From assembly GCF_001438845.1 (NCBI RefSeq), contig NZ_JQCL01000006.1:1-57154 (forward strand): a DNA stretch of 57,154 bases, in the 5' to 3' direction. The stretch's first letter is position 1. Each line of letters opens with the position of its first letter. A program made the translations under genes and the position numbers. Origin of the DNA: Lactiplantibacillus xiangfangensis. GTDB lineage: Bacteria > Bacillota > Bacilli > Lactobacillales > Lactobacillaceae. A model generated the notes under the pieces. The model was given only the letters and a program-made list of their open reading frames with translations. It was not told the origin of the DNA and did no database searches. Shown piece after piece: positions 19,031-57,154 of this stretch.

Positions 19031-19060
19031 AAAAAAAAAGTTGCCCGCGGGCAACTTTTT
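19031..19060 (-). terminator. Terminator of the cold-shock gene
   Basis: A perfect palindromic stem around GTTGCCCGCGGGCAAC with five T residues on the minus strand, just past the stop codon. Confidence 0.88.
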
Positions 19061-19070
19061 AAAAGTTTGA

Positions 19071-19274
19071 TTATTGTTGAGGAACAACGTTAGTAGCTTG
19101 TGGGCCACGATCGCTTTGTTCTTCGTCAAAAGTAACTTTTTGGCCTTCTTCTAAGGTCTTGAAACCGTCAACTTGGATAGCTGAGAAGTGAACGAATACA
19201 TCGTTGCCATCTTCACCAGTAATAAAACCAAAACCTTTATCAGCATTAAACCATTTTACAGTACCATTTTTCAT
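19071..19274 (-). CDS. Cold-shock protein, CspA family
   Basis: 66 residues (ATG 19274, seven bases after AGGAGG). Both RNP motifs are present, KGFGFI (RNP1) and VFVHFS (RNP2), in the standard five-strand cold-shock domain starting NGTVKWFN. It acts as an RNA chaperone that melts RNA structure. A TATAAT-type -10 at 19398-19403 (minus strand) predicts a leader of about 115 bases, the long 5' UTR expected of csp genes. The remainder of 19275-19615 holds only this leader and the promoter area of the next gene. Confidence 0.95.
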
Positions 19275-19615
19275 AAATACAAATCCTCCTAGGATTATCA
19301 AATCTAAAGTAACGAAACTATGTTATCAACACCTAAAAGAATTTGCAAGGTAGCAAACTAATGATACTTCTGAACTCCTGTTAAATGCCAATTACATATT
19401 ATAGATTAACACACTCACCCACCCGATGACAAGTGATGCCGATTTTTATTCTGATTTTTCGTGGAATATCTCATTAAAATTAACAAACGGTTACGTACAT
19501 TACCTGCGGGTAACAACCATCTAAAAGCTTTACTAAGAACGGGTTATTTCGTGACGGGTCGGTCCCGTTAGTGGTATATTCTAAGTATAAATGTTAACGA
19601 AAGAAGGTTGATCCG

Positions 19616-25795: not shown

Positions 25796-25928
25796 CCCCC
25801 TTCAGTGATTGCTTTAGTCTAATTATACGGCTATCTCTAAGTTTAGGGCCACCAAACTAGTCTATAAATTTAGTTGTTCCGAAGCTAACAAGCTAAAGGT
25901 TGAAAATCATAAAACCTGATACCAGCAA

Positions 25929-25960: not shown

Positions 25961-26135
25961 CGCTTCCGGCCGCCCATGATTTCATCTTCCGCAGCGACCG
26001 GACTAAGCCTGAGAAGCGGTCTTAGTCCTCGCTTGCAAGCCGCAACCCCACGTCTTGCAAGACGTCGGTGGCGTAAACCGGAAGTCCACCGGTCATCGCC
26101 ACTTTCGCGGTAGATTCATCATGTTCGACCTCCAG
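25961..26135 (-). repeat. Structured repeat family 2, copy 1 (minus orientation)
   Basis: Read on the minus strand it has an outer stem (26123-26107 with 25993-25975, with matched internal bulges), a GTGGCG...CGCCAC hairpin, a CTTGCAAG-armed hairpin, and a perfect 8-bp hairpin GGACTAAG/CTTAGTCC whose loop ACCGCTTCTCAGG is nearly identical in copies at 49.5 and 57.0 kb. It is more diverged than the other two copies. The surrounding 25796-26466 gap has no gene. Confidence 0.65.
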
Positions 26136-26266: not shown

Positions 26267-26300
26267 GATTGCGCCTATTTTAATGCTTTCAACCTTGAGT
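26267..26300 (-). repeat. 34-bp dispersed repeat, copy A
   Basis: Matches 36992-37025 at 31 of 34 positions when read on the minus strand. It lies in a gene-free gap, as does its partner, and both partners lie near structured-repeat elements. Confidence 0.6.
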
Positions 26301-26388
26301 AACAAGCGTTAAATCATTAAAGAGGCCGCTCTGTGAATTCGTCTAGGCATCGATACAACAGCAATTAATGGTCATAGTTAGCTAAAAC

Positions 26389-49063: not shown

Positions 49064-49240
49064 GCTGTTCGCCACCCTTTCTAAAAATCAGTCAACAAAT
49101 ATTATAGCAAATTTTCGGCGTGATTGCTGGTTTTTAAGGCGCTATCACGCACATTAATCCCACTTATTTTTGAAACCGTGTTCGTATTTGTTCGGTTAAT
49201 CAAATTGGCCCCATTACTAGCCATTAACTATTAAGTTGCC

Positions 49241-49409
49241 GCTCCGTCGGGTAGAATTGGGTGCTATGGGGGACGGTCCCAGCCACAGGACGGTCTGGAA
49301 CCTCAATTCAAAGCCGATAACCCACGTCTTTGAATTGCCCCGCAAGATTGGTGTAAAGACCACCCGCCAATCTTCCCGACACAGCACACCAATCCTATCC
49401 GCCTCCGCT
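49241..49409 (+). repeat. Structured repeat family 1, copy 2
   Basis: Outer arms about 49245-49268 and 49381-49402 pair with a bulge and wobbles. Internal hairpins are GGTCCCAG/CTGGAACC, CAATTCAAAG/CTTTGAATTG (perfect) and GCAAGATTGG/CCAATCTTCC. Loops CCACAGGACGGT and CCGATAACCCACGT match the other copies. It lies upstream of pcrA and is followed after about 40 bases by a family-2 element. No gene is supported in 49076-49698. Confidence 0.82.
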
Positions 49410-49450
49410 GAAAATAACATTACTAGCGCTATTATTGTTGGATAATCAGA

Positions 49451-49623
49451 GGCTGGCACTGATGACATCAGTCGTGACGGCGGCGTTGGGGCGACGTTTT
49501 TTGTCACCCTTACACCGCGGACGGCCCGGGACAATTGTGAATTTTGCAATCGTTCCGGGCGAGAGGCTAGACCGCTCCTCAGGCTAGCCTCGGTCCCACG
49601 ACTGCATGTCATCAGTGACAACC
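49451..49623 (+). repeat. Structured repeat family 2, copy 2
   Basis: Outer arms 49451-49476 and 49597-49623 pair over about 25 positions with one unpaired G, at the same place as in the 56.9 kb copy. Inside are a GCGG/CCGC hairpin, a CCCGGGAC/GTTCCGGG hairpin and a perfect 8-bp GAGGCTAG/CTAGCCTC hairpin with loop ACCGCTCCTCAGG. Confidence 0.82.
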
Positions 49624-54102: not shown

Positions 54103-54160
54103 TTTGATCGAATAATCGTAAAAGAAGTTGTTATCTAAAGATTGAAAAGTCTAAATAGCC

Positions 54161-54327
54161 GCTCCGTCAGACAGCGTTGCGTGCTCTGGGGGACGGTTGC
54201 AGCCACAGTGCGGTCTGCAACTTCGATTCAGAGCCGACAACCCACGTCTTTGAATCGCCCCGCAAGATTGGCGCAAAAACCACCCGCCAATCTTGCCGAC
54301 ACAGCACGCAACGCTGTCTGACTCCGC
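54161..54327 (+). repeat. Structured repeat family 1, copy 3
   Basis: A perfect 20-bp outer stem (54166-54185 with 54303-54322) encloses GGTTGCAG/CTGCAACT, CGATTCAGAG/CTTTGAATCG and a perfect 12-bp GCAAGATTGGCG/CGCCAATCTTGC. Loops CCACAGTGCGGT and CCGACAACCCACGT are conserved. It is 58 bases past an oxidoreductase stop codon. Beyond it, 54328-54560 holds no gene. Confidence 0.88.
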
Positions 54328-54560
54328 TAAAATAACTTTACTATTTGTTGCTACTGTCTAGTAATCAAATTCAATCAGAATAACTTCAAAACCATGATTT
54401 GTATTAATCCAACAGCACTTAATTTCCAAGTTACCTTTTAACCTTAGTTGTTAAGCTAAAACACCCCAACCTAGTTGAAATTCAGCTGGATTGGGATGTT
54501 TTCTTGCCTGAAGACTATCAGGTAGAAATTAGTTATTCTAATTAAAAACCGATATTTATC

Positions 54561-54618
54561 GAAGCCAGCTAGGAATCACCGTTCCCCCACAGCACACGGA
54601 TTCTGACTGGCGAAGCGA
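54561..54618 (-). repeat. Internally deleted (mini) family-1 element
   Basis: On the minus strand it reads CGCTTCGCCAGTCAG then GTGTGCTGTGGGGGAACGG, matching the first third of a full family-1 copy, then turns into GATTCCTAGCTGGCTTCG, which pairs back with the start. It directly touches the stop codon of menA. Confidence 0.6.
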
Positions 54619-55533
54619 CTAGTTAAAAATGAGCCCGAGTCCCATAAAGACGACGAATGACAAGCAAATAATGGTCGCATTTTTAATGGCTAATATAAAT
54701 GTCTCCGTCTTGACCTGTTTTTTGAGGAATAACTGCGTGTTTTTTAAGACGGGAACCACGCTGAGTAACGTTAGTAAGCTGAGTTTTGGTAAGACGCCCA
54801 TCCATACGGCAACCATTAAGCAGACATATCCCACAATATAACTCCACGCGAAGACTTGTAACATTACCGGTTTACCCAGATAATATAGAATGGTGTGGCG
54901 GCCTAACGCAATGTCTTCATCCATATCACAAATATTGTTGGCCAGCATGATGTTAGAAATCGCAAAAATAGCTATTCCAGATGCAATTAAGACTTCTAAC
55001 GTACTGGTCCCCGTTATCGCGACTTTGTCATAGGTATTAATAAAGACAGCAATCCAAAAAATCATAAAGCCCATCGTGAATCCTGAGAAGAACTCCCCGA
55101 ACGGCCCGGACGAAATCGGCTTGGGTCCCCCGGCGTAAAAGTAACCCACCGCGTAGGAATAGAGGCCCATCCATAAAAGCGGTAGCCCAGTCCGCGTGAC
55201 CAGCCACAGCCCCAGAATCAACGAAAGTCCACCCAATCCAAAGGTAATGGCTCGCGCCTGACGAATGGAAATTTGGTTAACCCCAACCACGTTAGTTGCT
55301 TCCAAAAATTCTTGGTTATCAGCGTTGCGCGGGGCGTGTAAAAAGTCCTGGTAATTATCATTGGCATTAGTCGCCATGTGAAATAACGACGAGGCAATGA
55401 AGAACAGGATTAAATAACCGAGGTGCACCTGATGGTAGTTGTACACCGCGTATAGCGTTCCTAAAACGAACGGTAAAACACTGGCGATTAGTGATTTGAT
55501 CTCGACAAATTCGAGAAAAACTTTCGGTTTCAA
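54619..55533 (-). CDS. menA: 1,4-dihydroxy-2-naphthoate polyprenyltransferase
   Basis: 304 residues from TTG 55533, seven bases after AGGAGG. A UbiA-type membrane prenyltransferase with about nine membrane segments, the first prenyl-diphosphate box NANDNYQDF and the second NICDMDEDIALGR. It joins an isoprenoid chain to DHNA to make demethylmenaquinone. No other men gene is near; lactobacilli of this group usually need DHNA or menaquinone from outside. It is divergent from the polyprenyl diphosphate synthase that would supply the chain. Confidence 0.93.
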   Translation of the reverse strand: MKPKVFLEFVEIKSLIASVLPFVLGTLYAVYNYHQVHLGYLILFFIASSLFHMATNANDNYQDFLHAPRNADNQEFLEATNVVGVNQISIRQARAITFGLGGLSLILGLWLVTRTGLPLLWMGLYSYAVGYFYAGGPKPISSGPFGEFFSGFTMGFMIFWIAVFINTYDKVAITGTSTLEVLIASGIAIFAISNIMLANNICDMDEDIALGRHTILYYLGKPVMLQVFAWSYIVGYVCLMVAVWMGVLPKLSLLTLLSVVPVLKNTQLFLKKQVKTETFILAIKNATIICLSFVVFMGLGLIFN

Positions 55534-56653: not shown

Positions 56654-56678
56654 TGTGATACTATTTCTTAACGAAACC

Positions 56679-56849
56679 GCTCCGTCAGTCAGAGCTGGTG
56701 TGCTGTGGGGGGCGGCCCCAGCCAAAGGACGGTCTGCGGCCTCAATTCAAAGCCGATAACCCACGTCTTTGAATCGCCCCGCAACGTTAGCCGGCTAAAA
56801 CCACCGGCCAACGTTGCCGACACTGCACGCCAGCTCTGACTGACTGCAC
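56679..56849 (+). repeat. Structured repeat family 1, copy 4
   Basis: Outer arms 56684-56707 and 56821-56844 pair at 22 or more of 24 positions. Internal hairpins are GGCCCCAG/CTGCGGCC, CAATTCAAAG/CTTTGAATCG and GCAACGTTAGCCGG/CCGGCCAACGTTGC. The third hairpin differs in sequence from other copies on both arms. Loops CCAAAGGACGGT and CCGATAACCCACGT are conserved. It begins 26 bases past the ispB stop. Confidence 0.85.
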
Positions 56850-56900
56850 TAAACTCAATTTTCTTGTTATTCAATGATCTAAATTTATTAATTATTCGGA

Positions 56901-57071: not shown

Positions 57072-57100
57072 GGACTAAATAATAAATGGCTAATAAATAT

Positions 57101-57154
57101 GGCTCTTTGTCAACGGCTGTTGATGAGGAACTTTATGAGGAAACCAGTTCATTT
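57101..57154. mobile_element. Probable left end of an ISL3-type insertion sequence, cut by the window
   Basis: The sequence from GGCTCTTTGTCAACGG followed by TGTTGATGA resembles the terminal repeats of ISL3-family elements of lactic acid bacteria (from memory). Only 54 bases are visible and no transposase is in the window. Confidence 0.45.

Follow-up and report, generated by a model that had tools for sequence, protein, structure and literature searches.

Cloverleaf repeats and their carrier in the window

The window analyzed here is the 57,154-nucleotide stretch of Lactiplantibacillus xiangfangensis contig NZ_JQCL01000006.1 (genome G000 below), and the folded repeat at its 54.16-kb position is one half of a gene-less mobile element of lactobacilli, which is its carrier. 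The original prediction had placed four full copies of a cloverleaf-like element at 37.35, 49.24, 54.16, and 56.68 kb, each with an outer stem and three internal hairpins. All four were recovered at these places, with 177-198 bits, by R1, a model built from 30 copies in the window's own genome that include these four, and the outer stem (a perfect 20 bp) and three hairpins were confirmed in the 54.16-kb copy. The features of this focal element and of its relatives in the window are listed here, with scores from R1 and from R2, a model built from 28 sequences of the second cloverleaf family described below.

54128..54134, no strand: left target duplication TTGTTAT; the right copy, TTGTTAA at 54448-54454, is alike in 6 of 7 bases
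54135..54447, plus strand: whole focal element, 313 bp, with left inverted repeat CTAAAGATTGAAAAG at 54135 and right inverted repeat CTTTTAACCTTAG at 54435-54447
54156..54330, plus strand: cloverleaf 1 (family 1) of the focal element; R1, 198 bits (a copy used in building R1); fold z -10.5
54166..54185, plus strand: outer stem, 5' arm, pairing with 54303-54322 (sequence and fold)
54195..54222, plus strand: hairpin I, tip CAGCC...GG(T)CTG, one bulged base (fold and A1 structure)
54224..54257, plus strand: hairpin II, tip AGCCG...CGTCT (fold and A1 structure)
54262..54296, plus strand: hairpin III, variable apical loop (fold and A1 structure)
54303..54322, plus strand: outer stem, 3' arm (fold)
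54556..54621, minus strand: degenerate remnant of cloverleaf 1 without its inner hairpins; R1, 17.6 bits, E 0.0025; inverted repeat I4
49236..49411, plus strand: cloverleaf 1 of the second element; R1, 186.7 bits
49448..49626, minus strand: cloverleaf 2 (family 2) of the second element; R2, 197.3 bits; R1, 42.1 bits; -105.5 kcal/mol, z -10.7
56674..56852, plus strand: cloverleaf 1 of the third element; R1, 177 bits
56898..57074, minus strand: cloverleaf 2 of the third element; R2, 187.3 bits; R1, 46.5 bits
37344..37518, minus strand: cloverleaf 1 of the fourth element; R1, 189 bits
25893..26299, plus strand: diverged relative, cloverleaf at 25965-26133, both ends intact as inverted repeats (25893 and 26286-26299)

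The right end of the focal element was assigned by eye and differs from CTTTCAACCTTTAG by one substitution and one deletion, and searches of the window with R1 and R2 found no second cloverleaf in this element. The diverged relative is bounded by a perfect 7-bp duplication, TAACAAG, at 25886-25892 and 26300-26306. As RNA, the focal sequence has a minimum free energy of -94.5 kcal/mol (z -10.5; none of 200 dinucleotide shuffles was as low), and the fold on the opposite strand also lies far below shuffles (z -7.9). Elsewhere in the window, the Rfam search returned a match to the cspA thermoregulator at 19031-19415 on the minus strand (102 bits), and the contig stops, at 57100-57154, just inside an IS-end-like stretch that we take to resemble the end of an ISL3-type insertion sequence.

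The conserved unit is an inverted pair of cloverleaves, family 1 on the plus strand and then the diverged family 2 on the minus strand, each half being ~175 nt long with three hairpins; the order is left end, cloverleaf 1 (plus), a short AT-rich linker, cloverleaf 2 (minus), and right end. Read on the opposite strand, family 2 has an outer stem and three hairpins on the same plan as family 1 (49.45-kb copy), and we regard it as a homologous cloverleaf because each model detects the other family. The original prediction had a repeat family 2 but did not join it to family 1 as halves of one element, nor did it report terminal inverted repeats and target duplications. R1 found both family 2 copies of the window (42.1 and 46.5 bits), R2 matched three of its four family 1 copies (45.6-79.6 bits; the focal 54.16-kb copy is absent from the R2 matches at E up to 1), and modules in other genera were detected by both models. 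The tips of hairpins I and II are similar, AGCC...GG(T)CT in the one and AGCCG...CGTCT in the other. In three diverged lineages (window 49440-49465, and comparable places in loci L061-L080 and L296-L325), module 2 is preceded by a GGAGG-like stretch with an ATG or TTG 6-10 nt further on, which may be either a ribosome-binding-like site or chance. An autonomous version, in which a transposase gene would lie between the cloverleaves, was looked for and none was seen. At one locus in G135, a genome of another genus (L319, 76-1685), the facing modules lie ~1.24 kb apart and are separated by a 270-aa frame extending into cloverleaf 1; by its motif, we take this frame to be esterase/hydrolase-like.

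Inverted ends, target duplications, and a likely mobilizer

Within the window's genus the cloverleaves are flanked by inverted ends, CTAAAGGTTGAAAG, as seen in G000, in its nearest relative G012 (an uncultured Lactobacillus MAG, CALFSK01), and in a third species, G002; at many copies terminal inverted repeats were not detected, and around 11 elements inspected singly (L061, L062, L088, and L089 of the genus and seven of other genera) only short, low-scoring matches to inverted ends were found. The exact 14-base end motif is present in 12 of 21 genomes and is absent from every reversed control. Among 30 full-length end-motif loci from these 12 genomes, taken with loci at contig edges excluded, 20 (from eight genomes, two of them being opposite ends of one element) lie within 400 bp of a cloverleaf match, and the remaining 10 lack one.

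Direct duplications accompany these ends. For 34 end pairs in pieces of G000 and G012, collected with up to three mismatches at each end and a spacing of 60-900 bp and including chance pairs, mean identity at a duplication length of 7 bp is 0.618 against 0.325 when shuffled, and lengths of 4-6 and 9-11 are near background. Perfect duplications occur in 11/34 (nine at 7 bp and two others at 8 bp; two of the perfect ones are a single site counted in both genomes). Eighteen end pairs in G002, from 20 stretches of which two had no pair, include seven perfect at 8 bp and two others at 7 bp (9/18). A terminator-like hairpin stands beside five of the 18 G002 elements in a crude scan that had no control, and we claim no preference for terminators from it. 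At one site (q36; L057/L158), G000 and G012 have apparently received different elements next to one and the same terminator.

The prediction was of a structured element, and in this genus it does not stand alone: the cloverleaf lies inside a repeat built like a transposon, which has inverted ends and duplications of 7-8 bp. A match to an insertion sequence, which the original prediction had named as counting against it, was found for the carrier in its IS4-family ends and was not found for the cloverleaf. From these sequence features, the element in the window's genus is best described as a non-autonomous MITE that would be moved in trans by an IS4-family (ISPepr1-like) transposase.

A likely source of that enzyme is a 1565-bp element between the same ends in the congener G004, which encodes a 451-aa IS4-family transposase (NF049925, 481.6 bits at a cut-off of 250; Pfam DDE_5 and DDE_Tnp_1 above cut-off; IS701-family models are also matched, below their cut-offs). 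On sequence grounds we consider it the likely mobilizer of the cloverleaf MITEs, a judgment based on the full reading of one copy in one species. Its left end matches the copy at L022 over the first 18 bases. The ISPepr1 subgroup of IS4, as set out in Table 1 and accompanying text of PMC2266710, comprises elements of 1500-1600 bp with ends YT-AA-YTT---A, 7-8 bp repeats, and AT-rich targets. Against that consensus, seven of the eight named bases of the G004 end agree, base 7 being G, and the size agrees as well; the cloverleaf MITEs share the 7-8 bp duplications and AT-rich targets (same part of PMC2266710). No clear duplication is visible on either side of the G004 copy, those of 7-8 bp being seen only for the MITEs. 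What differs is the cloverleaf: the single copy read of the likely mobilizer has no R1 or R2 match, and therefore its transposase need not use the fold. By tblastn, the G004 protein is matched in two pieces (97.1% over 91% of its length) on the Lactiplantibacillus plantarum plasmid NZ_CP035114.1. Contigs of G004 (L402/L404, G004:C61) and of G007 begin or stop at CTAAAGGTTGAAAG ends, which suggests that several near-identical insertion sequences with such ends may have broken these assemblies.

The same architecture can be followed in G135. There, R2 detects a second, oppositely oriented module no more than 180 bp past the first at 21 of 30 cloverleaf 1 loci, and the unit, mostly 430-480 bp long, starts sharply at cloverleaf 1 (CCGTTACG-like) and ends, with cloverleaf 2, near AACCGYAAGCG. 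No 8-mer is common to more than four of 42 flanks outside the pair, no inverted repeats were found outside it, and no 4-9 bp duplication was found in 24 of the 30 loci scanned; these scans cover one genome with assumed boundaries, with 24 and 21 of 30 loci usable. Since neither ends nor duplications were found in G135, the MITE reading is shown for the window's genus only, and elsewhere the cloverleaf pair may be older or may move by other means.

Distribution, covariation, and the fate of landed copies

In G000 (2.99 Mb), where 150 of 864 candidates were scored, R1 matches at least 122 places at E up to 0.1 and at least 63 above 120 bits, the remainder being fragments, diverged copies, or second-strand matches to a copy already listed. 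With 130 candidates scored per genome, 15 of the 21 genomes in the genus have matches (up to 127 per genome) and six have none. Under stricter scoring (nine candidates per genome, strict filters), matches were found in 44 of the 301 genomes sampled from the family, representing eight of 40 genera, and in six of 295 genomes drawn from the order, a sample with no breakdown by family; all six are in the window's family. The claim that no named family matches was upheld by Rfam, in which no family exceeds its gathering threshold on the element (at gathering thresholds and at E up to 10, matches lie far below gathering scores). A distant blastn of plasmid and phage collections with the focal element and a search of IMG/VR with one exact 22-base pattern gave no match, and no description of the cloverleaf element was found in the open-access literature, a body that leaves subscription papers mostly outside.

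The stems had been predicted to covary, and this was borne out both within the genome and across genera, beyond shuffles. Among the 30 G000 copies, compensatory change is seen in 24 of 56 pairs and 95.7% of cells pair; column shuffles of the same alignment give 11.4 pairs and 89.4%, and none of 500 reaches either observed value, with the proviso that column shuffles ignore relatedness and that the structure was derived from that same alignment. The search of Lactobacillaceae genomes with a model of the copies showed that the fold recurs in eight genera and covaries very strongly. In an alignment of 27 modules from other genera, of either cloverleaf kind and at E up to 1e-4, compensatory change is seen in 51 of 56 pairs and 445 cells, with 92.3% paired against 64.6% when shuffled and 35-45% in slid versions; this alignment, having been fitted to the structure, is biased in its favor, and the controls again ignore relatedness.

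Whether the molecule was RNA or single-stranded DNA had been left as alternatives. The fold is real, and the pair types favor the DNA option. A maintained RNA is expected to tolerate G-U over A-C, and here G-T pairs make up only 1.7-3.0% of paired cells. The ratios of G-T to A-C in three sets are 28/46, 35/43, and 45/35, with a slight G-T surplus only in the family 2 set; the ratio in tRNAs is 13/1 (Fisher p 0.0002, 0.0009, and 0.014 against the three cloverleaf sets), from a small control of 11 tRNAs in the fetched loci, two stems each, kept if at least 10 of 12 pairs were formed. Because G-T is not in excess of A-C, unlike in tRNAs, pairing at the DNA level is favored over pairing as RNA; decayed copies dilute the signal. 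Over 121 copies, A-C outnumbers G-T by 232 to 104 on the given strand. A choice of strand from this asymmetry was considered and dropped, the in situ count being only 23 A-C against 12 G-T (p 0.09).

Orthologous sites show what happens to copies after landing. From 79 G000 copies taken, 14 lie in collinear alignment with part of G012, and the 10 with cores >88% alike were counted. Their 47 changed pairs comprise 34 single changes that left or broke the pair, 12 kept as G-T, and one double change, and the outcome of single changes at these loci is, by our estimate, about what chance would give. Stem changes are mostly pair-breaking, and we therefore see no strong selection holding single copies; at the same time, stems changed less than unpaired bases (49/1116 vs. 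59/594, p 1.5e-5), possibly reflecting weak constraint on landed copies or lower mutability of stems. The predicted selection on a folded molecule was not seen, at the 10 loci, as strong selection on each copy. Single copies seem to decay after landing.

The other four loci (cores 69-84% alike, flanks 89-94%), excluded from the decay count, hold 22 pairing-preserving double changes, 24 single breaks, seven G-T pairs, and six double breaks. By our reading of the alignments, q36 holds different elements inserted at one site and q7 and q55 are tangled sites; q40 was read as an orthologue with several compensatory swaps, having four double changes, and the closest other copy to its cores reaches 0.86. 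At L007, L012, and L074 the whole element (548, 445, and 386 bp) is missing from G012, and at L002 and L194 a single cloverleaf is missing. For L002 we considered whether cloverleaf 1 had been inserted separately, leaving a CTCCG duplication, and rejected this, as a deletion between short repeats is equally likely there and L194 retains a stem remnant.

Origin and meaning of the cloverleaf element

The reading we prefer, with a probability of roughly 0.65, is a MITE with IS4-type ends moved in trans, whose two cloverleaves are kept on the propagating lineage and whose pairing is used as DNA. An ISPepr1-like transposase would move the element and leave the 7-8 bp duplications, the ends and duplications being what is observed. 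Selection would keep the cloverleaves on the lineage that propagates and not for a duty at each site, so that spreading copies would carry intact Watson-Crick stems and landed copies would then decay. The pairing could be used in single-stranded hairpins or in an extruded cruciform, and our preferred guess is that a protein might recognize the repeated AGCC...GTCT tips during movement or copying of the element.

Other accounts place the cause elsewhere. The cloverleaf pair could be a mobile unit of its own, served by a putative hairpin-recognizing enzyme in the manner of REPIN-RAYT or HUH systems, with the IS4-type ends captured in the window's genus; the sharp-ended G135 unit, its lack of shared outer sequence and of detected duplications, its facing arrangement in 21 of 30 loci, and the Watson-Crick-like pairing all suit this idea, which we nevertheless hold to be unlikely given the DDE-type ends and duplications in the window's genus and a G135 scan that covers one genome with assumed boundaries. 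Covariation might also arise with no selection on the fold at all, by palindrome correction, in which replication switches template from one arm of an inverted repeat to the other. Changed pairs are mostly full Watson-Crick swaps with few G-T intermediates, as such correction would leave them, and q40, with four double changes and no other copy closer than 0.86, could be a case of it; one double against 46 single changes at the 10 orthologous loci, however, implies that correction is slow beside mutation, and the conserved unpaired tips across copies are left unexplained, so that we consider this mechanism, too, a doubtful one.

Least probable, and in our view very unlikely, is that the cloverleaf serves the host as a structured non-coding RNA or mRNA element and was spread by a transposon. 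The case for this is a fold stable on both strands, conserved loops, stems that change less than unpaired bases, and the GGAGG and start-like codon before module 2 in three lineages; against it stand G-T pairs that do not exceed A-C, mostly pair-breaking change at single loci, the six of 21 congeners without a match, and the absence of an Rfam match.

Returning to the MITE with DNA-level pairing, several known systems bear comparison. The EFAR repeats of Enterococcus faecalis can presumably be grouped with Efa-1 as a comparable system. Efa-1 of the same species is 163 nt long, intergenic, and multi-copy, with a predicted structure, according to a passage of PMC2267715. Both are likened to the cloverleaf element by description, and our order sample, which may not include E. 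faecalis, matched only the window's family. REPINs are inverted pairs of folding repeats, non-autonomous, whose hairpins are read as DNA. Two inverted folding repeats with a spacer are likewise found in the cloverleaf element; the scale differs, as REPs are 20-40 bp in the portion of PMC3733652 consulted and the cloverleaf halves are ~175 nt with three hairpins. Bacterial IS-derived MITEs, as characterized in part of PMC10969869, are also non-coding, a few hundred bp long, with inverted ends shared with an IS, short duplications, and AT-rich sites, whereas the cloverleaf element has a covarying pair kept across genera and, in G135, occurs without such ends. A broader and decidedly tentative reading is that these elements form a class of gene-less mobile DNA in several Lactobacillaceae genera, whose two ends, ~175-nt cloverleaves with three hairpins, would be read as folded DNA by a dedicated hairpin enzyme, a much larger and more intricate counterpart of REPINs to which IS4-type ends were added in one genus.

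Covariation is usually taken as a sign of structured RNA. Here, a strongly covarying fold lies in a mobile element with mostly decaying copies and DNA-like pairing, which makes the cloverleaf element a test case for DNA-level versus RNA-level selection in covariation scans. For the lactobacilli themselves, a likely mobilizer is named and can be assayed, and part of the intergenic repeats of their genomes is accounted for.
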